Shown: one piece after another, positions 39,174-49,417 of the stretch
Layout: every line of letters starts with the position of its first letter
How positions within the stretch are numbered: the stretch's first letter is position 1
NCBI GenBank assembly: GCA_030427905.1
Contig: JAUICL010000001.1
Location: forward strand, 496,001 to 560,000
From: Bacteroidia bacterium
Lineage (GTDB): Bacteria > Bacteroidota > Bacteroidia > Flavobacteriales_D > Cryomorphaceae
Direction of reading: 5' to 3'
Length of the DNA: 64,000 nt
Made by a program: the position numbers and the translations under genes
The notes under the pieces: model-generated
The model's database searches: none
Seen by the model: only the letters and a program-made list of their open reading frames with translations
What the model was told of the DNA's origin: nothing

Positions 39174-41537
39174 ATGTCTTACGTACTCAAGCGCGATGGC
39201 CGGAAAGAGTCGGTAAAATTCGACAAGATTACCGCCCGGATTAAAAAACTCTGCTACGGATTGAATACAAGTGTCGATCCGATTGAAGTAGCCAAGAAAG
39301 TTATCAATGGTATCTACGAAGGGGTAACTACTTCCGAGCTAGATAACCTAGCGGCTGAAGTCGCTGCGACCAACACAGTAAAGCATCCAGACTATGCTTT
39401 ATTGGCTAGCCGTATAGCCGTGAGCAACCTCCACAAGAATACGGCAAAATCCTTTTCTGAAACGATGAAGCTGCTCTACGAGTACGTAGACCCGAAAACA
39501 AATGAGCCAGCTGCACTTTTGGCCGAAGATGTGTACCAGATTATCAGAGATAACTCCGAAGTACTAGACTCGACCATTATCTACGATCGCGATTTCAGTT
39601 ATGATTTCTTCGGATTTAAGACGCTGGAAAGGTCTTATCTATTGCGGATTAATGGTGAAGTCGCCGAGCGCCCACAGCACATGCTGATGCGCGTGGCTAT
39701 TGGAATCCATAAAGAAGACATTGACTCGGCAATCGAGACGTACAACAAGATGTCGGAAGGGTGGTTTACCCACGCTACACCTACTTTGTTTAATTCGGGT
39801 ACACCGAAACCGCAGATGTCATCTTGCTTCTTACTGACCATGAAGGAAGATAGCATTGGAGGTATTTACGACACGCTAAAACAGTGTGCGCAAATCTCTC
39901 AAAGTGCCGGTGGTATCGGACTTTCTATCCACGACATCAGAGCAAAGGGTTCGTACATACGCGGTACCAATGGTACATCAAATGGCATTGTTCCGATGCT
40001 TCGCGTATTCAACGATACAGCGCGCTACGTAGATCAAGGTGGGGGAAAGCGGAAAGGTTCTTTTGCTATTTACATGGAGCCTTGGCACGCCGATGTTTTC
40101 GACTTCCTCGAGATGAAGAAAAACCACGGGAAGGAAGAAATGAGAGCTCGCGATCTCTTCTACGCCATGTGGATTCCAGACTTGTTTATGAAGCGAGTGG
40201 AAGCCAATGGTGAGTGGACATTGATGTGCCCGAACGAATGTCCAGGCTTGTCTGATGCCTACGGTGCAGACTTCGAGAAGCTCTACGAGAAATACGAAAA
40301 AGAAGGAAAGGGTCGAAAGACCATCAAAGCCCAAGAGCTGTGGTTTAAAATTCTCGAATCTCAGATTGAGACTGGAACGCCTTACATGCTTTACAAGGAT
40401 GCGGCCAACGAGAAATCGAACCAGAAAAACTTAGGCACGATCAAGTCGTCAAACTTGTGTACAGAGATCATGGAGTACACTGCGCCTGACGAAACGGCTG
40501 TTTGTAATTTGGCTTCTGTGGCTCTGCCGAAATTCGTTCGCGAAGGGAAGTTCGATCACGACAAGCTATTCGATATCGCTTATCAGATGACGGTGAACCT
40601 CAACCGTATCATTGACAATAATTTTTACCCGACGCAGGAAGCGCGAAACAGCAATATGCGCCACCGGCCTATTGGTATCGGGGTTCAGGGATTAGCCGAT
40701 GCTTTTGTGTTGCTCCGCATGCCTTTTGAGAGCGATGAAGCACGCAAGTTGAACAAGGAGATTTTCGAGACGATATACTACGCGTCAATGACGGCGAGTA
40801 AGGATCTCGCCAAAGTAGATGGGCCTTACGAAACGTACAATGGCTCGCCAGTGAGCAAGGGAATATTCCAGTTTGATTTGTGGGGAGTAACGCCTTCTGA
40901 CCGATGGGAATGGGATGTGCTCAAAGAAGAAGTGAAGCAGCATGGGGTGAGAAACTCACTCTTATTAGCTCCAATGCCTACGGCGAGTACGGCGCAGATC
41001 CTTGGAAACAACGAGTGTTTTGAGCCTTACACGGCTAACATCTACACCAGGCGGGTCCTTTCGGGAGAGTTTGTGGTGGTGAACAAGCACTTGCTCCGCG
41101 ACTTGGTGAAGCTGGGTATTTGGAATGATGACCTCCGTCAGAAGCTTATGGCTTCAAACGGCTCGGTACAAAACATCAAGGAAATTCCAGAGAACCTGAA
41201 GGAGCTGTACAAAACAGCCTGGGAGATTAGCCAGAAGGCCATTATCGATATGGCAGCTGATCGCGGTGCGTACATCTGCCAGTCTCAGTCGCTCAATATC
41301 TTTATGGAGAACGCCAATTTCGCGAAGTTGACATCGATGCACTTCTATGGATGGAAGAAAGGACTGAAGACGGGGATGTACTACTTGAGAACCAAGGCAG
41401 CAGTTGAAGCCATCAAGTTTACAATCGACAAGAGCAAGCTGAGCTCTCCGGAAGAGCAGAAAGCAGCTGAGCTAGAAGCTGCAGCAGCCGCCTGTTCAAT
41501 TGAAAATGGTCCGGATTGCGAGATGTGTAGCGGTTAA
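39174..41537 (+). CDS. nrdA: Ribonucleoside-diphosphate reductase, large (R1) subunit
   Basis: 787 residues. An N-terminal ATP cone (about 1-95) is followed by the reductase barrel with [18 protein letters not shown], the NLCTEI active-site segment, ANIYTRRV and [12 protein letters not shown]. The tail ends CEMCSG, giving the redox cysteine pair that is recharged by thioredoxin or glutaredoxin. It reduces ribonucleoside diphosphates for DNA synthesis. An ATP cone implies allosteric inhibition by dATP. Followed by a strong terminator. Confidence 0.97.
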
Positions 41538-41563
41538 TCACATCCTGAGAAATGATTTAAGGT

Positions 41564-41590
41564 GCCCCGAGGAAACTCGGGGCGCTTTTA
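41564..41590 (+). terminator. Rho-independent terminator after nrdA
   Basis: 8-bp stem GCCCCGAG / CTCGGGGC with a GAAA tetraloop, followed by GCTTTTA. Confidence 0.85.
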
Positions 41591-41671
41591 TTTATAGCTT
41601 TTCTAAATAAGCTCCGATGACAATACCATGACAATACAAGTGGGGGAGAATGCGATTTTTGTACCTACTTA

Positions 41672-42919
41672 ATGAGCAGCTCTTCGTTGACATATATGCA
41701 GGGGATCACTTTTACCCACAAAGCCCTGCCACTAGACCTGATAGGTAAGTTTCACATTGATCCGGAGTTTCAAAAAGAGAAGCTCGGAACTGTGAAAGCT
41801 TCTCTCGGTCTCGACGAGCTTTTTTATCTCTCTACTTGTAACCGTGTCGAATTCCTGATTGTTGCCAAGACAGGTGTGTTACCAAGCCCTGCTCAGCTTA
41901 TTGCCGCCCTTGAGCTTGACATTAATCAAGCAGAAACCGAGCAATGCGAGAATGCAGCTCTTATCTACACTGGCGAAGATGCCGTTAGACACTTGTTTGA
42001 AGTGAGTGCATCACTCGACTCTATGGTTATCGGTGAAAGAGAGATCATCACTCAGGTGCGCAAAGCTCATGAAGAGTGCAGAGCGATGGGCCTTTCGGGA
42101 GACACCATTCGACTGGTGATCAGAAAAACTGTAGAAACGGCCAAGCAAATTTTTACCGAAACCGACATTTTTAAAAAGCCGGTTTCAGTTGTTTCACTCG
42201 GTTTTCACCGTTTGAAAGAGCACAACTTGCCAGATAGTAGCCGTGTCTTGATGATTGGTGCTGGAAAGACCAACCGAGCTATGGCGAAGTTCTTGATCAA
42301 GCATGGATACAAAAATCTTTTCATCTTCAACCGAAGCATTGAGCGTGCAGAAGAGCTAGCCAATGACGTTGGTGGAGAGCCACATAGCCTTAGCGAGCTC
42401 GAAAACTTCAAAGGTGGCTTCGACGTGATGATCACGTGTACGGCTTCAAGCGATCACATTGTCGATCAATCCACATACGAGAAGCTTACTCAGAACGCCA
42501 TCCACCCGAAGGTGATTATCGATCTGGCTATTCCTTCTGATATTTCTCCTGAAGTGATCAAGACTTTGCCTACAGATGTGCGATACATCGATATTGCCGA
42601 GCTAAAAACAGTGGCTGACAAAAACCTTTCAGAGCGCGCTCAGGAAATCGAAAAGTGTCAGGCGATAATCGCAGAGAGCATGGTCGAGTTTCACGCCATG
42701 TACAATCAACGCAAGATTGAGATTGCGATGAGCGATATTCCAAAGAAAGTCAAGGAGATTCGCGAAAATGCATTGACTTCGGTGTACGCCAAGGAAATAG
42801 ATGGTATGGACAAGGAGTCTCGCGAAGTTCTAGACAAGGTCATCGCCTACATGGAGAAAAAGTACATCTCTGTTCCCATGAAAATGGCGCGCGAAGTAAT
42901 ATTGAATCAATCGAAGTGA
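41672..42919 (+). CDS. hemA: Glutamyl-tRNA reductase
   Basis: 415 residues. The nucleophile is Cys56 in FYLSTCNRVE; further marks are SLDSMVIGEREI, the NADPH-binding MIGAGKTNRAMA and DLAIPSDISPEV. It reduces glutamyl-tRNA to glutamate-1-semialdehyde, the first committed step of haem synthesis by the C5 pathway. Its TGA overlaps the GTG start of hemC by four bases (GTGA), so the two are translationally coupled. A weak promoter-like GATTTTTG lies at 41654-41661. Confidence 0.96.
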   Translation: MSSSSLTYMQGITFTHKALPLDLIGKFHIDPEFQKEKLGTVKASLGLDELFYLSTCNRVEFLIVAKTGVLPSPAQLIAALELDINQAETEQCENAALIYTGEDAVRHLFEVSASLDSMVIGEREIITQVRKAHEECRAMGLSGDTIRLVIRKTVETAKQIFTETDIFKKPVSVVSLGFHRLKEHNLPDSSRVLMIGAGKTNRAMAKFLIKHGYKNLFIFNRSIERAEELANDVGGEPHSLSELENFKGGFDVMITCTASSDHIVDQSTYEKLTQNAIHPKVIIDLAIPSDISPEVIKTLPTDVRYIDIAELKTVADKNLSERAQEIEKCQAIIAESMVEFHAMYNQRKIEIAMSDIPKKVKEIRENALTSVYAKEIDGMDKESREVLDKVIAYMEKKYISVPMKMAREVILNQSK

Positions 42920-43821
42920 GTACAGGAAAAATTACCATCGGATCGCGAGGTAGTGACTTAGCCTTGTGGCAGGCGAATTTTGTTAGAAATGAGCTTGAGA
43001 ACCTAGGCCATGAGGTGGAAATCAAAATCATTAAGACTAAAGGTGATGCCATTCAGCACCTGAGCTTCGATAAAATGGAAGGCAAGGGGTTCTTTACCAA
43101 AGAGATTGAATCTGCCCTTCTAGCCAAAGAAATTGATCTGGCAGTGCACTCGTACAAAGATTTAGAGACGACTCAGCCTGAAGGGTTGAAAATCGGGGCT
43201 ACTTCCTACCGCGCCAATCCCGTTGACACAATTTTGATTCGAAAGTCGGAAGTGGATGAGAACAACAAATGGGCTGTAAAGAGGGGAAGAGTCATTGGTA
43301 CTTCGAGTGCTCGCAGAAAGCTGCAAGTCAAATTGCACCGATCAGACCTTCAGATCAAAGACATACGAGGAAATGTACCGACTCGTATTGAAAAGCTGCG
43401 CAGCGGTGATTTCGATGCCATCATTCTAGCCAAGGCTGGTATCGATCGGCTTGAGTTAGACCTGTCTGACCTACATGTATACGAGTGCGACCCACTCGAT
43501 TTTATCCCTGCTCCGGCACAAGGCGTTTTAGCGCTGCAGATAAGAGAAGGTCACGGTGATTTAGAGCATGCGCTCAAGCCGCTCAACAATGCCGAAGTGG
43601 CTGCTAGGGTGGGGGTTGAGCGTAAGGTCCTTAACTTATTTCAGGGTGGGTGTCAGTTGCCCCTGGGCGCATATTGTATCGGCTCTGAATCAGAAGGGTA
43701 CCGCATAGATGCCATTATGGCTCCAGACCTAGACAGTGTGGCTGCTAGGGTGAGTATTAGCAGCGAGAAAACAGAAGGTCTTGCCGAGCAGGTAGTGGCC
43801 GAGCTTAAAAAAAAAGCCTAA
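42916..43821 (+). CDS. hemC: Hydroxymethylbilane synthase
   Basis: 301 residues from GTG 42916, which overlaps the hemA stop. Visible are GSRGSDLALWQA at the start, AVHSYKDLETT, IRGNVPTRIEKL and the dipyrromethane-cofactor Cys246 in FQGGCQLPLG. It polymerises porphobilinogen to the linear tetrapyrrole. The gene ends in ELKKKA encoded across nine A residues (43807-43815), then TAA. The hemD frame enters from this A run in the -1 frame; see hemD. Confidence 0.95.
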   Translation: MSTGKITIGSRGSDLALWQANFVRNELENLGHEVEIKIIKTKGDAIQHLSFDKMEGKGFFTKEIESALLAKEIDLAVHSYKDLETTQPEGLKIGATSYRANPVDTILIRKSEVDENNKWAVKRGRVIGTSSARRKLQVKLHRSDLQIKDIRGNVPTRIEKLRSGDFDAIILAKAGIDRLELDLSDLHVYECDPLDFIPAPAQGVLALQIREGHGDLEHALKPLNNAEVAARVGVERKVLNLFQGGCQLPLGAYCIGSESEGYRIDAIMAPDLDSVAARVSISSEKTEGLAEQVVAELKKKA

Positions 43822-44489
43822 CCCGAAGCCGACTATTCTACAGCCGTAATCACATTGGGCCTGTTTTTCAAAATCTGTTAGATCGCGACTCGATTCAAAT
43901 AGAATTTCAATCTTGTATCGAGATTAAACCAGTGCATTCTGCCGTCCTTCCCGAAGGCGATTGGTTGTTTTTCTATTCTCCGGGAAGTGTAGACGCCTTT
44001 CAAAAGATATTTCAAAGTTTTCCGTCGAAGTACAACTACGGGAGCGTGGCTCCAGGTACCAATCGCGAGTTGGAGAAGTATGGGTTGAAACCAGCTTTTG
44101 TACCTGAGTCAATGGATATAGAAGAGAATGTGAGAGCTTTCGCAGCTAGAGTAGGAATGGGTGAAACAGTAATTACGCCAGTCGGTAACCGCAGCGGAAA
44201 CAGGCTGAAGTCAGTCTTGAGTGAAGATCAGCTCAAAACGGTAACAATCTACAATACGGTGCCAGCGAAAGAGATCCGCAAATCTTCGGCGACTTATCTC
44301 GTTTTCACATCCCCCACCAATGCCGAGTTTTACTTTGACAGGCATGGGATTGAAGAAGGACAATGCGTAGTAGCTATCGGCCAGACAACAAAAAAGGCCC
44401 TTGCGGGCCTTGGATTCGATCGGATCGTGGTCTCCGAGACACCTTCCGAAGAAGGTATCTGGCAGGCCATTCAAGCTGATGTTATTTAA
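43809..44489 (+). CDS. hemD: Uroporphyrinogen-III synthase (HemD), start codon not visible
   Basis: The frame is open from 43809, just after an in-frame TAA at 43806-43808, to the stop at 44489. HemD-like sequence begins at once: SLTRSRLFYSRNHIGP, then CIEIKPV and WLFFYSPGSVDAF; TNAEFYF and AIGQTTKKAL occur later. No ATG, GTG or TTG exists in this frame before GTG 43932, and a start there would remove about 40 conserved residues. The frame is reached from hemC by a -1 shift on its A9 run, which would give a HemC-HemD fusion. Alternatives are a rare start codon (for example ATT 43854), transcriptional slippage or a sequencing error in the A run. The product closes uroporphyrinogen III from hydroxymethylbilane. 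Confidence 0.8.
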   Translation, partial: KKSLTRSRLFYSRNHIGPVFQNLLDRDSIQIEFQSCIEIKPVHSAVLPEGDWLFFYSPGSVDAFQKIFQSFPSKYNYGSVAPGTNRELEKYGLKPAFVPESMDIEENVRAFAARVGMGETVITPVGNRSGNRLKSVLSEDQLKTVTIYNTVPAKEIRKSSATYLVFTSPTNAEFYFDRHGIEEGQCVVAIGQTTKKALAGLGFDRIVVSETPSEEGIWQAIQADVI

Positions 44490-45660
44490 AGGCGTTTTCG
44501 CCTGTGATATCTAGTCCTGTGATAAGTAGGTGGATGTCGTGCGTTCCTTCGTAAGTAACTACTGACTCCAAATTCATCATGTGACGCATGATTGGGTACT
44601 CATTCGTGATCCCCATTCCACCGTGCATCTGACGCGCATCACGACAAATCTTCATCGCCATATCTACGTTATTTCGCTTAGCCATAGAAATCTGTGCGCT
44701 TGTCGCTCTTCCTTCTTCTCTCAATTGACCGAGTCTCAGGGTGAGCAATTGGGCCTTGGTGATTTCAGTAATCATCTCAGCAAGCTTCTTTTGTTGAAGT
44801 TGGAATCCTGCGATTGGCTTACCAAACTGATGGCGCTCTTTTGAGTAGCGAAGAGCTGAGTCGTAGCAATCCAAAGCTGCTCCAATAGCTCCCCAAGCGA
44901 TACCGTAGCGGGCGCTATCCAAACACCCAAGCGGAGCCCCCAGTCCTGATTTTCCAGGAAGTAGGTTTTCTTTTGGAACTTTTACATTGTCGAAGACCAA
45001 TTCACCTGTGTTGCTTGCACGCAAACTCCACTTTCCGTGGGTTTCAGGCGTAGTAAATCCTTCCATACCACGCTCCACTACCAATCCGTGGATGCGACCC
45101 GTTTCATCTTTCGCCCAAACCACAGCGATGTCTGCAAAAGGGGCATTTGAAATCCACATTTTGGCTCCGTTCAGGAGGTAGTGATCTCCAGCGTCTTTGA
45201 AGTTGGTGATCATTCCACCCGGGTTTGAACCGTGATCAGGCTCAGTAAGTCCAAAGCAGCCGATAAATTCTCCCGAAGCCAATTTGGGTAGGTATTTTTG
45301 TCGCTGTTCTTCGTTACCGTATTTCCAAATAGGATACATGACCAAGGAACTCTGAACAGATGAGGTAGAACGAAGTCCGCTATCGCATCTTTCGAGCTCT
45401 TGCATGATCAATCCATAGGAGATTTGATCCAAACCGGCTCCACCGTATTCAACAGGGATGTATGGCCCAAAAGCCCCGATTTCTGCCATGCCGGGAATGA
45501 GTTGCTTTGGGAAAGTTCCCTTCTCGAAATATTCTTCAATTATCGGAGAAACTTCCTTTTTCACCCACGCTCTCGCGGCATCTCGTACAAGCTTGTGTTC
45601 TTCCGACAAAAGCTCGTCCATTTCATAATAATCGTGGCCTTGGTATTGATCTGTACGCAT
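44482..45660 (-). CDS. gcdH: Glutaryl-CoA dehydrogenase-like acyl-CoA dehydrogenase
   Basis: 392 residues with the acyl-CoA dehydrogenase fold. Features specific to the glutaryl-CoA group are GLRSTSSVQSSLVMYPI (with the carboxylate-binding Arg) and the catalytic base Glu371 in VTYEGTHDIH. Others are FGLTEPDHGS and RQMHGGMGI. It oxidises and decarboxylates glutaryl-CoA to crotonyl-CoA in lysine and tryptophan breakdown, with FAD and ETF. It ends 8 bases inside the convergent hemD gene. A TAnnTTTG box lies 19 nt before the ATG. Confidence 0.92.
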   Translation of the reverse strand: MRTDQYQGHDYYEMDELLSEEHKLVRDAARAWVKKEVSPIIEEYFEKGTFPKQLIPGMAEIGAFGPYIPVEYGGAGLDQISYGLIMQELERCDSGLRSTSSVQSSLVMYPIWKYGNEEQRQKYLPKLASGEFIGCFGLTEPDHGSNPGGMITNFKDAGDHYLLNGAKMWISNAPFADIAVVWAKDETGRIHGLVVERGMEGFTTPETHGKWSLRASNTGELVFDNVKVPKENLLPGKSGLGAPLGCLDSARYGIAWGAIGAALDCYDSALRYSKERHQFGKPIAGFQLQQKKLAEMITEITKAQLLTLRLGQLREEGRATSAQISMAKRNNVDMAMKICRDARQMHGGMGITNEYPIMRHMMNLESVVTYEGTHDIHLLITGLDITGENAFK

Positions 45661-45679
45661 GTTGTTTATTTTTCGCGCC

Positions 45680-45687
45680 CAAAGGTA
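45680..45687 (-). promoter_or_regulatory. -7 promoter element for gcdH
   Basis: Minus strand TACCTTTG, a full match, 19 nt before the ATG. The -33 site reads CTG instead of TTG at 19-nt spacing. Confidence 0.5.
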
Positions 45688-45739
45688 TAAATTAGGCCAA
45701 TAGAATCAGACTAGAAACAGGCTGAAATCTACCAGATAT

Positions 45740-46444
45740 ATGAGGTTTATCACGGCACAAATCGACATGACTCCCATTCTCAGGCCTACTCCTAATTTGT
45801 TCGAGGAGTGGATGATAGGCGTGGTGGTCTTTATTGTAGTAGTGCTGGCATACACCCGTATGGTCTATGCAAAGCGGTTGAGTAGGCTGTTCAATTCGAT
45901 GGTCCGCATTCAGATTTTAAGACAAGTCATGAGGGAAGAACTGGTGTTTTCGCATCGAGCTTCTGTGCTTCTCTTGATCAATTTTGTCTTGATCATGGCT
46001 CTAATTGTCTACTTAGGTGGAGTTTATTTCGAGTGGTCATTTTTGGATGAAGGAGGTTTGGCAAAATTCATGATCATTGCTGGAATCATAGCTGGTGTAT
46101 ACATCGGTAAGCTTTTGTTGTCGCGCATTATGCGTTGGCTACTTGGCGACAACGGCCTGATCAGAGAATATCTCTTTGAACTTTTTCTCATCAACAAGGC
46201 CACCGGCGTAGTGTTATTGCCTTTAGCCATTTGCCTGGTTTTCGTCAATATTGGTAAACTCAATTGGATCATTGGTTTCGTAACCTTCATTATCACTGGT
46301 TTTTTTGTGTTCAGAATAATCCAGGGATTAAGATTAACTACCTCCTACAGAGTTTCGTGGGTCTATATTATTTTGTACCTTTGCACCCTCGAAATTTTGC
46401 CTTTTTTATTCCTCTTCGGAGCGCTTGAAACGGGCAAGTTTTAA
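45740..46444 (+). CDS. DUF4271 domain membrane protein
   Basis: 234 residues with about seven hydrophobic helices (first at WMIGVVVFIVVVLAYTRMV). DUF4271 proteins are Bacteroidota-specific inner-membrane proteins, almost always upstream of a HemD-like gene, as here (28-nt gap). Function unknown. The C-terminal FLYLCTLEILPFLFLFG-like segment is typical of the family. Confidence 0.85.
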   Translation: MRFITAQIDMTPILRPTPNLFEEWMIGVVVFIVVVLAYTRMVYAKRLSRLFNSMVRIQILRQVMREELVFSHRASVLLLINFVLIMALIVYLGGVYFEWSFLDEGGLAKFMIIAGIIAGVYIGKLLLSRIMRWLLGDNGLIREYLFELFLINKATGVVLLPLAICLVFVNIGKLNWIIGFVTFIITGFFVFRIIQGLRLTTSYRVSWVYIILYLCTLEILPFLFLFGALETGKF

Positions 46445-46472
46445 CAGAAGCTAAACTCAAGGAGATATTTCT

Positions 46473-47222
46473 ATGGCGGAAAAAGTCAAATCCATTTTGA
46501 TTTCGCAACCAAAACCAAGCTCGGAGAAATCACCGTACTACGATCTAGCAGAGAAGTACAAGCTGAAAATTGATTTCAGACCATTCATTCATGTGGAAGG
46601 AGTTCCGGCTAAGGAATTTCGTCAAGATAGAGTGAATATTCTCGAGCACACGGCGGTTATTTTGACCAGTCGAAATGCCGTTGACCACTTCTTCAGAATG
46701 TGTGAAGAGATGCGTACACCTGTGCCAGAATCGATGAAGTACTTCTGTCTTTCAGAATCGACCGCGTATTACCTACAGAAATACGTCGTTTATCGAAAGC
46801 GCAAGATCTTTCACGGAAAGGTGAGCTTTAGAGACCTTTTGGAGGTAATCAAAAAGCACAAAAACGAAAAGTACTTGTTGCCTTGTTCGGACATCCACAA
46901 GCGCAATATCACTGACCTTTTGGACAGCATCAACATCAAGTACACCAAGTCTGTATTTTACAAAACCGTATGTAGCGACCTGTCGGATCTTGCCGACGTA
47001 AACTACGATATGCTGGTTTTCTTTAGTCCTTCGGGAATAGAGTCATTGTTTAAGAATTTCCCCGACTTCAAGCAGAACGGAACGCGCATCGCCGCTTTCG
47101 GTACCACTACTTCGGCTGCTGTAGAAAGTGCAGGGCTCAAAATTGATGTTCACGCTCCTAGCCCAGGACTGCCTTCTATGTCTATGGCAATCGAGAGTTA
47201 CATCAAAAAGACCAAGAAATAG
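46473..47222 (+). CDS. HemD-like protein (uroporphyrinogen-III synthase family, second copy)
   Basis: 249 residues. The start (SILISQPKPSSEKSPYYDLA), IDFRPFIHVEGVPAKEFR and LVFFSPSGIESLFKNFPDF match the Bacteroidota branch of the uroporphyrinogen-III synthase family that accompanies DUF4271. A different HemD lies next to hemA-hemC at 43.8-44.5 kb, so the genome has two members. Which one is the main enzyme cannot be told; this copy is strongly conserved and lies with DUF4271 and rnpA, which hints at an additional or different role. Confidence 0.85.
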   Translation: MAEKVKSILISQPKPSSEKSPYYDLAEKYKLKIDFRPFIHVEGVPAKEFRQDRVNILEHTAVILTSRNAVDHFFRMCEEMRTPVPESMKYFCLSESTAYYLQKYVVYRKRKIFHGKVSFRDLLEVIKKHKNEKYLLPCSDIHKRNITDLLDSINIKYTKSVFYKTVCSDLSDLADVNYDMLVFFSPSGIESLFKNFPDFKQNGTRIAAFGTTTSAAVESAGLKIDVHAPSPGLPSMSMAIESYIKKTKK

Positions 47223-47243
47223 ACATTTCAAAAACTGAAGGAA

Positions 47244-47267
47244 GGCAGCCCACAGGCTGCCTTTTTT
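47244..47267 (+). terminator. Rho-independent terminator before rnpA
   Basis: 7-bp stem GGCAGCC / GGCTGCC with loop CACA and six T residues. It lies 13 nt before the rnpA ATG, so rnpA may depend on read-through or a promoter overlapping the hairpin. Confidence 0.88.
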
Positions 47268-47279
47268 GTATCATTGAGT

Positions 47280-47669
47280 ATGGAATACAAATTCCCAAAG
47301 AAGGAAAAGATTACCTCCAAGTACGACATTGATGCCCTTTTTCAAAAGGGGCGCTTTGTGCGGGAGAGAAGTCTGTCCATTAAATACTTGGTTGTGGATC
47401 GATCAGAGGGAAGCCCATTGATAAAAGTCTTGGTAGTAGTTCCAAAAAGTCGGTTTAAAAAGGCTGTAGATAGAAATAGAATCAAGCGCCTGATCAGAGA
47501 AGTGTACCGACTTAACCCCGAACTTAGACCGGATAGTGACAGGCTGAATACCAAGGGACTCCATATGGCAGTGATGTACCAGGGCTCGCAAATGCCCAGT
47601 TTTGATGAAGTGCGCGGCTGTTACAAAGTGGCGATGCGCAAAATAAACGAGCGCTTAGCCCAACCTTAA
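47280..47669 (+). CDS. rnpA: Ribonuclease P protein component
   Basis: 129 residues from ATG 47280; a TTG six bases upstream is open but less likely. The RNR motif is KAVDRNRIKRLIREVYRLN. The small basic protein binds the RNase P RNA to process tRNA 5' ends. The usual neighbour yidD is absent here; the next gene is an S41 protease. A terminator lies directly upstream. Confidence 0.95.
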   Translation: MEYKFPKKEKITSKYDIDALFQKGRFVRERSLSIKYLVVDRSEGSPLIKVLVVVPKSRFKKAVDRNRIKRLIREVYRLNPELRPDSDRLNTKGLHMAVMYQGSQMPSFDEVRGCYKVAMRKINERLAQP

Positions 47670-47767
47670 CAAGAATTAACCGAGCAGCGCATTATTTTGG
47701 CAATTTAAGCCTTCCTTTGCCCTTCTTATAGTTGTACATTTAGTCTGTTAAGACAATTTTCATTGAT

Positions 47768-49417
47768 ATGAGTAAGAATTGGAAAAAGAGAATCGTAATT
47801 GGAGGATTGGCCCTTACAGGCTTGGTCGGAATTTACGGGACATCGAAGGATAACTATTTTGAGATCTCGAAGAACCTAGAAGTTTTTGCAACGCTTTACC
47901 GCGAGCTCAACGTGTTTTACGTTGACGATATTCAGCCTGGTGAAATGATGAAAACGGGTATCGATGCCATGTTAGAGTCTCTTGATCCTTACACCACTTA
48001 CATTACTGAGAGCAATATTGAAGACTACCGCTTTATGACCACCGGAGAGTACGGTGGTATTGGTAGCTTGATACGCACGGTTGATGGAGATGTCTACATT
48101 TCGGAGCCGTACAAAGATTTTCCTGCCTACAAATCGGGGCTGAAAGCCGGAGATAGAATTCTCAAAATTGATGGTAAAAGCATCGAAGGAAAAGATCAGG
48201 AAGAGATCAGCAAAATGCTCAAGGGCCAATCTGGTACCAAATTGACAATCGAATACGAGCGTGCAGGAGCCGTTTCAGAAACTGAGCTTGAAAGAGAACA
48301 AGTGAAGATTCCTGACGTGCCCTACTATGGTATGTTGGATGATAAGACTGGCTATATCAGCTTGTCGAGCTTCACCCGTACGGCGAGCCGAGAGGTGCGC
48401 GAAGCGTTTATGGATTTGCGAGATAATCACGGCATGGAAGCCCTTGTTTTTGATCTCCGCGGAAACGGTGGTGGGTTGCTAGGAGAAGCTGTAAACATCG
48501 TGAACATCTTCGTCCCCAAGGGTCAGGAAGTCGTGAGTACAAAGGGAAAAATTTCGGAATGGGATAAATCCTACTCTACCCTAGCTGCTCCGATGGATAC
48601 CCTGATGCCATTGGCTATTTTGGTCAACGGTGGAAGTGCATCGGCGTCTGAAATCGTGTCTGGATCTATCCAAGATTTGGATCGGGGAGTCATAATCGGA
48701 ACGCGGACTTTCGGTAAAGGACTCGTGCAGCAGACTAAGGACCTTCAATTCAACAACAAACTTAAGCTCACAGTTGCTAAATACTACATTCCGAGTGGCC
48801 GATGTATCCAAAAGCTCGACTATACGCACAAGAAGGATGGGGTAGCCGAAGAAGTTCCAGATTCGCTTTTGATGGTATTCAAAACTAGAAATGGAAGAGA
48901 TGTGATTGATGGACGCGGAATTGATCCGGACATTGAAATTGAGAAGTCGGAATTTCCGCACATTTTGGCGAGTTTGCTGAGCGAGAATTTGTTCTTCAAG
49001 TACGCGACGGAGTACCAGCGAACTCATGATGAAATCGCAGAACCTGAGAAGTTTGAACTATCAGATCAGGAGTACCAGGCTTTTATGGATTACCTCGCCG
49101 ACAAGAATTACAGCTACGAAACCGATACCGAAGCAGAGCTGGAGAAACTGAAGGAGATCGCTCAAAAAGAGAAGTATTGGGACAAGGCTTCTGATGAATT
49201 CAAAGCTTTGGAGTCGGCGCTACACTCGAAAAAAAATCAAGACCTTTTGATCTACAAAGACGATATAGTAGACATTCTCGAGAACGAAATTGTGTCGAGA
49301 TACTACTATCAGAGAGGGCGGGTACAGGCTCAACTATCAAGTGATGAGTCAATTGAAAAAGCGCTTCAAATTCTGAATGATGATAACGCCTATAATGGTA
49401 TCTTAGGTCCTTCATAG
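47768..49417 (+). CDS. S41 family C-terminal processing peptidase, second copy
   Basis: 549 residues. An N-terminal hydrophobic segment (IVIGGLALTGLVGIYG) is followed by a PDZ domain (IGSLIRTVDGDVYIS, then KSGLKAGDRILKIDG), the peptidase with RGNGGG, catalytic Ser in GSASASE and Lys in TFGKG, and a helical C-terminal extension. Role: trimming of envelope proteins. Paralogue of the protease at 27.8 kb; the C-terminal 150 residues differ strongly, which may set substrate choice. The next gene begins 10 nt after. Confidence 0.93.
   Translation: MSKNWKKRIVIGGLALTGLVGIYGTSKDNYFEISKNLEVFATLYRELNVFYVDDIQPGEMMKTGIDAMLESLDPYTTYITESNIEDYRFMTTGEYGGIGSLIRTVDGDVYISEPYKDFPAYKSGLKAGDRILKIDGKSIEGKDQEEISKMLKGQSGTKLTIEYERAGAVSETELEREQVKIPDVPYYGMLDDKTGYISLSSFTRTASREVREAFMDLRDNHGMEALVFDLRGNGGGLLGEAVNIVNIFVPKGQEVVSTKGKISEWDKSYSTLAAPMDTLMPLAILVNGGSASASEIVSGSIQDLDRGVIIGTRTFGKGLVQQTKDLQFNNKLKLTVAKYYIPSGRCIQKLDYTHKKDGVAEEVPDSLLMVFKTRNGRDVIDGRGIDPDIEIEKSEFPHILASLLSENLFFKYATEYQRTHDEIAEPEKFELSDQEYQAFMDYLADKNYSYETDTEAELEKLKEIAQKEKYWDKASDEFKALESALHSKKNQDLLIYKDDIVDILENEIVSRYYYQRGRVQAQLSSDESIEKALQILNDDNAYNGILGPS

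Follow-up and report, generated by a model that had tools for sequence, protein, structure and literature searches.

An A-run junction between hemC and hemD as a candidate slip site for HemC and a HemC-HemD fusion in Bacteroidia

Slippage on runs of A residues has been described in several bacterial genes. In Thermus thermophilus dnaX, a run of nine A residues (A9) is accompanied by a shorter product (50%), for which slippage by RNA polymerase has been proposed (PMC1088944). In Citrobacter rodentium tssM1, transcriptional slippage on an A11 run has been described at about 20–25%, with both forms of the protein needed (PMC4256274). Within the tetrapyrrole pathway, magnesium chelatase genes of other lineages are treated as −1 frameshift genes in a large survey (PMC3711429). 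Here we describe a hemC-hemD junction from a member of the Cryomorphaceae at which hemD lies in the −1 frame relative to hemC, with an A9 run between them. We consider it very probable, on the pattern of sequence across related genomes, that this run is a functional slip site giving HemC plus a HemC-HemD fusion.

The hemC-hemD junction in the window

The window, as we call the whole 64 kb stretch of DNA that was analysed, carries a hemA-hemC-hemD row with the following features:

41672–42919, + strand: hemA, glutamyl-tRNA reductase (Pfam GlutR_N, Shikimate_DH and GlutR_dimer)
42916–43821, + strand: hemC, hydroxymethylbilane synthase, GTG start (TIGR00212, 270 bits; PF01379, 235.8 bits)
43807–43815, + strand: A9 candidate slippery run, AAA AAA AAA in the hemC frame, with A_AAA_AAA in phase
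43819–43821, + strand: hemC 0-frame stop (TAA), one sense codon past the A9 run
43809–44489, + strand: hemD, putative uroporphyrinogen-III synthase in the −1 frame (stop-to-stop ORF; HEM4, AlphaFold2 model, Foldseek)
43932–43934, + strand: first GTG of the hemD frame, residue 42 (ORF reading, AlphaFold2 model)
46473–47222, + strand: second HEM4 paralog, not linked to hemC (121.8 bits), flanked by a DUF4271 gene and rnpA

The 3' end of hemC reads CTT AAA AAA AAA GCC TAA in frame, and its protein ends in ELKKKA-stop. The −1 frame is closed by a TAA at 43806–43808 and is then open for 226 codons, from 43809 to 44489. We found no ATG, GTG or TTG in the hemD frame of the window upstream of the GTG at 43932. 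On re-reading the sequence, we thus arrived at the same junction as the preliminary description, which had placed the end of hemC across the A9 run, had the −1 frame shut by that TAA and open from 43809, and had named 43932 as the position before which the hemD frame offers none of these three start codons. A single continuous HemC-HemD frame is absent in the window, the two frames being separated by a −1 shift. The hemA stop overlaps the hemC start as GTGA, which makes the start-less junction the exception in the row. No other run of nine or more A or T residues occurs in the 64 kb window, where AAA accounts for 49% of Lys codons (31 ORFs). Across both strands of this 3.81 Mb genome there are 35 distinct runs of A9 or longer (42 overlapping hits, merged). 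An A8 run lies elsewhere in the window, at 49229–49236, within an S41 peptidase frame (47768–49417).

The −1 frame had been called HemD-like from its sequence, and profile and structure comparisons bear this out. The frame matched HEM4 (PF02602) with 89.7 bits over residues 22–218, and its AlphaFold2 model had a pLDDT of 94.4. When the model was compared with the PDB using Foldseek, the best 13 matches were all uroporphyrinogen-III synthases. The −1 frame is therefore HemD by its HEM4 domain and predicted fold, with a putative activity. The predicted N-terminus comprises β1 (residues 7–11), α1 (18–25), β2 (29–33) and β3 (37–41), all of which precede residue 42. Initiation at the GTG at 43932 would therefore remove 41 residues and, with them, all four of these elements.

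Recurrence of the junction among relatives

We searched for this junction in related genomes with three kinds of query: the hemD frame (matches in 37 of 60 genomes, the window's own counted), HemC (299 genomes of the order and 114 of family f9) and a HemD alignment (395 genomes of the class). Family searches covered 10 genomes of f24, 35 of f17 and one each of f5 and f6. An A-run junction, with A9 or A10, hemD in the −1 frame and no usable start, was present in 19 genomes from 12 genera and 6 families, a set enriched by extra searching in the families of the first sightings and not to be read as a class frequency. The comparison with relatives that the preliminary description had suggested as a check thus recovered the junction in 18 genomes besides the window's own. 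The run was A9 in 15 genomes and A10 in four (G011, G012, G684 and G695), and hemD was in the −1 frame in all 19. Up to the first VFISR-like motif of HemD, a canonical start in the hemD frame was absent in 18 of the 19, including the window; in G533, hemC itself contains a GTG in this frame, some 96 nt ahead of the run. G012 yielded no recognisable VFISR-like motif, and eight codons were checked there; its first canonical codon lies 16 codons past the run.

The fetched loci fell into three junction states: an in-frame HemC-HemD fusion, a separate hemD with a start codon, and the window type. Family f1, to which the window's genome belongs, had five readable junctions: two were of the A-run type (G000 and G004), and the other three had a hemD start codon at the same place (TTG twice, ATG once). 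The single genomes of f5 and f6 (G011 and G012) had A-run junctions, as did all three members of one genus found in the f9 search (G025, G037 and G045). Two genera of f24 were each uniform, with A-run junctions in 5/5 genomes of g116 (G507, G579, G353, G557 and G533) and in-frame fusions in 5/5 genomes of g76. Among the 27 genomes of f17 with a match, there were seven A-run junctions (G596, G616, G681, G684, G695, G696 and G697), 12 fusions, seven start codons and one junction that was not scored. Eighty named loci from the HemC alignment comprised 59 with a start and no long run, 15 fusions, one with a start and a run of at least A8, four showing no hemD, and one A-run junction (L122, from an uncultured Flavobacteriales MAG), an A10 junction the same as that of G011. 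In-frame HemC-HemD fusions are common in the class, in line with the earlier remark that such fusions exist in some bacteria: among the best 150 matches listed in the class search, 125 lay in open frames of fusion size (more than 480 aa).

We then reduced 263 loci to 216 by removing those whose HemC stretch was contained in another. These comprised 114 junctions with a start codon, 72 in-frame fusions, 21 start-less junctions and nine that were not scorable and were dropped, with no or weak hemD in reach. Runs of at least A9 were found at 19 of the 21 start-less junctions versus 1 of the 114 start-bearing ones (Fisher 6e-20), an association to be read as a link and not as a frequency, since the rows are related to one another and families with hits were searched more heavily. 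All 21 start-less hemD frames were in −1, and the 114 start-bearing ones were distributed over −1 (68), +1 (36) and 0 (10). A9 is not universal for start-less hemD, since one locus (L026, from G017 of f11) has a start-less hemD in −1 with only A5, its hemC stopping ten codons later. A second apparent case without an A run (L149) was rejected as an N-gap artefact, in which the HemD model begins at position 110 and which a looser scoring rule counts as start-bearing; both loci were kept among the 21. At the one start-bearing junction with a run of at least A9 (L135), the run comes after the hemD GTG. In this locus and in L173, that GTG overlaps the hemC stop, and A8–A9 follows immediately downstream of the start.

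The distance between the two domains was counted in nucleotides between a GGCQLPLG-like motif in HemC and the VFISR-like one in HemD; junctions in which a motif was not recognised were left out (two A-run, 12 fusion and 22 start-bearing junctions, out of 19, 72 and 114, respectively). The median was 180 nt in fusions (60/72 measurable) and 179 nt in A-run junctions (17/19), and each of the 17 A-run spacings was one short of a multiple of three. The window, at 188 nt, lies within the fusion range of 168–201. With the A-run median one nucleotide below that of fusions and within their range, one added A would restore the fusion spacing.

The 0-frame stop follows the run within 1.4 codons at 15 of the 19 A-run junctions. 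After collapsing these into lineages, 10 of 14 had a stop this close, compared with 12 of 72 when the fusions were read in the corresponding frame (Fisher 1e-4); in the fusions, the stop came after a median of 11 codons (Mann-Whitney against the A-run lineages, 9e-5). The type of hemC stop differs between relatives and its place is constant, with TAG or TGA in genus g20 and TAA or TAG in g116. If the junctions were errors or chance deletions in fusions, the HemC-frame stop would fall anywhere. The preliminary description had kept open a homopolymer sequencing error, by which the locus would be a simple fusion, here one with an extra A in the run, and the junction does equal a fusion minus one base. 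That alternative has become extremely improbable: an error accounts neither for 19 genomes in six families, including 5/5 species of one genus, nor for A9 and A10 runs that both leave hemD in −1, and it would not be expected to bring an early 0-frame stop. Moreover, a run of at least A9 occurs in only 1 of the 72 fusions (L014). Together with the normal hemD sequences, these features make dual expression the best reading of the junction.

Loss of function would be another way to explain a broken frame. hemD could be a pseudogene decaying after a one-base deletion, with the second HEM4 gene, 2 kb downstream of hemD in the window, doing its job, and each of the 14 A-run genomes tested (of the 19) did carry two HEM4 genes. 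However, the hemD match was free of internal stops in 19/19 genomes, and hemD is under purifying selection in the three close pairs for which dN/dS was computable (0.17 for G025/G037, 0.11 for G507/G579 and 0.17 for G353/G557), two more distant pairs being left out as saturated or nearly so. Over the first 43 codons of hemD, the values were 0.17 for G025/G037 and 0.12 for G507/G579, and 1.08, from few sites, for G353/G557. In addition, 12 tested genomes of the order without detectable hemC, as judged from one search with the window's HemC, had one HEM4 gene each, of the rnpA-side type in 12/12. Their products scored 427–452 bits with an rnpA-side profile versus 27–44 bits with the HemD profile; the rnpA-side profile had these very proteins as its source, and single-sequence comparisons, scoring 322–380, agree. 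The 12 genomes without detectable hemC keep only the rnpA-side HEM4, which marks the hemC-linked HemD as the copy associated with hemC and the pathway. The second HEM4 is thus unlikely to be the pathway enzyme, and we consider the pseudogene reading highly improbable.

The second HEM4 gene was found in all 26 genomes tested, including the 12 without detectable hemC. Its persistence in the latter weakened it as a candidate replacement for HemD, and the protein probably functions outside uroporphyrinogen-III synthesis. Separately, four loci of family f53 (L228–L231, from G524, G571, G441 and G470) have a hemD-like open frame of 226–255 aa beside a fusion-size frame. No hemC profile match was found in the fetched stretch upstream of these frames, which are apparent second copies.

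Proposed slippage and its agent

We propose that a single message gives two products, as the preliminary description had suggested; the recurrence of the junction, the early stop and the spacing all support this. Without a slip, hemC would terminate one codon past the run and yield HemC alone. With a slip, either the message would gain one A through the polymerase or the ribosome would move back one base on A_AAA_AAA, and translation would continue as ...ELKKK-SLTRSRLFYSRN..., giving a HemC-HemD fusion like the in-frame fusions of the class. An A added by the polymerase would produce an A10 message read as K K K S L T R S R, and a ribosomal −1 shift would give the same protein. HemD would then be produced solely as a fusion, and the ratio of HemC to HemC-HemD would be fixed by the efficiency of the slip. 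In the A-run genomes, slippage seems to be the only expression route of the hemC-linked HemD. We infer from the sequences the occurrence of the slip, its rate, the two products and the polymerase as main agent.

An independent start of HemD, whether on a codon other than AUG close to the run or through reinitiation once hemC has terminated, would make a slip unnecessary. As is usual for coupled gene pairs, the hemC stop lies near the hemD start, and relatives of the same family begin hemD on TTG or ATG at this spot. However, no near-cognate start was shared across the 19 A-run junctions: between run and motif, CTG, ATT, ATC and ATA were all lacking in 15 of them, including the window, and in three of those 15 there is no codon between run and motif at all. 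An independent start also gives no account of the link with A9–A10, and we judge it very improbable.

Alternatively, the run could be a contingency locus, in which replication slippage changes its length in the DNA and some cells carry the plain fusion. Runs of this length can slip during replication, which a survey of frameshifted genes names as a cause of phase variation (PMC3711429). If switching took place, many junctions with at least A9 would be in frame. The 21 junctions of this kind comprised 19 start-less ones in −1, one in-frame fusion and one with its own start, making phase variation a very improbable explanation.

We next considered whether the polymerase or the ribosome would slip. 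Transcriptional slippage calls for an A run of about nine whose position and frame are kept across species, and at the 19 junctions we found A9 in 15 and A10 in four, with hemD in −1 throughout six families. A length of about nine fits that near which Baranov et al. find slippage selected against in many genomes (PMC1088944). Programmed −1 ribosomal frameshifting on A_AAA_AAA or A_AAA_AAG would give the same two products. An in-phase heptamer (A_AAA_AAA, A_AAA_AAG or A_AAA_AAC) is present at 19/19 junctions, seven A-rich heptamers are among the consensus frameshift motifs of Antonov 2013 (PMC3711429), and the shift is always −1, while a polymerase might also drop bases.

However, neither a shared downstream structure nor an upstream SD was found as a stimulator in the 16 of 19 junctions examined, three near copies having been left out of the folding count. 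Downstream stem-loops were not consistent (z from −2.1 to +1.6 against mononucleotide shuffles), dinucleotide shuffles gave z values of +0.58 and +1.09 for the window and −1.01 for L246, and an SD-like sequence lay upstream of the run in only 3 of the 16. An Rfam scan of 41500–47800 gave no match reaching the cut-off. Furthermore, no start-less junction among the 216 deduplicated loci had a run of 6–8 A, although such a run would suffice for a ribosome, which six or seven would already serve. The missing 6–8 A class and the lack of a consistent structure or SD favour the polymerase. From these sequence patterns, the polymerase is the likelier main agent, and ribosomal frameshifting as the main route is possible but less likely.

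Evolution of the junction and comparison with known systems

A HemC tree of 124 rows implies 11 changes for the A-run state, of which well-supported branches force only two; the tree was built by a quick method and has weak deep forks, 33 open branches among its 121 inner ones and one long-branch warning. The A run may have originated repeatedly, or it may be an old state that several lineages have kept. On either view it is a plausible step between fusion and fission, and we tentatively suggest that the slippery A run may be a hinge on which genes pass between the fused and the split state in evolution. The fusion would repeatedly have passed through, or settled in, a state one A short that yields HemC plus the fusion; sister lineages would then have gained hemD start codons, as in the window's family, or kept the plain fusion. 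If this hinge exists, the balance between the enzyme that makes hydroxymethylbilane and the one that must catch it is set by how often the slip occurs.

Two in-frame fusions carry an A run in the linker: A9 in L014 (G038), where the other frame stops after three codons, and A8 in L008 (G032), where it stops at once. By analogy with dnaX, a slip at these loci would release HemC alone, the reverse of the window's arrangement.

To our knowledge, few housekeeping genes have slippage as their only expression route. In six families, heme synthesis seems to rely on it for one of its steps, and in-frame fusions and split genes nearby provide ready-made natural comparisons. The junction raises the questions of whether slippage sets enzyme ratios in a central pathway and whether it can carry a gene from fusion to fission. 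We expect automatic annotation to tend to label such a hemD as truncated or as a pseudogene. Our literature search for hemC, hemD or their enzymes together with frameshifting found no report. The main-text portions available of two large surveys (PMC3711429, PMC5009743) do not mention hemC or hemD, and these genes may be listed in the supplementary GeneTack data.

The A-run pair shares its domains, their order and the linker spacing with the in-frame HemC-HemD fusions of Bacteroidia, and differs from them in that the frame is broken by one base at the A run, with the hemC stop just after. Of the known slippage systems, Thermus dnaX and Citrobacter tssM1 come nearest. Thermus dnaX resembles hemC-hemD in its A9 run, its two product lengths and the polymerase proposed as agent. 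However, the unslipped product of dnaX is the long form, whereas that of hemC-hemD would be the short one, to which a slip would add a second complete enzyme. In tssM1, a premature stop likewise lies past the run and added A's lead to the long form (PMC4256274), but tssM1 encodes one protein, while hemC and hemD encode two consecutive pathway enzymes and the junction spans six families. The magnesium chelatase genes share the tetrapyrrole pathway and the occurrence of shifted pairs alongside natural fusions in other species (PMC3711429), but involve a different enzyme and different lineages. Slippage on A runs and HEM4 proteins are both known; what is unusual in the hemC-hemD junction is its spread and the joining of two consecutive enzymes.
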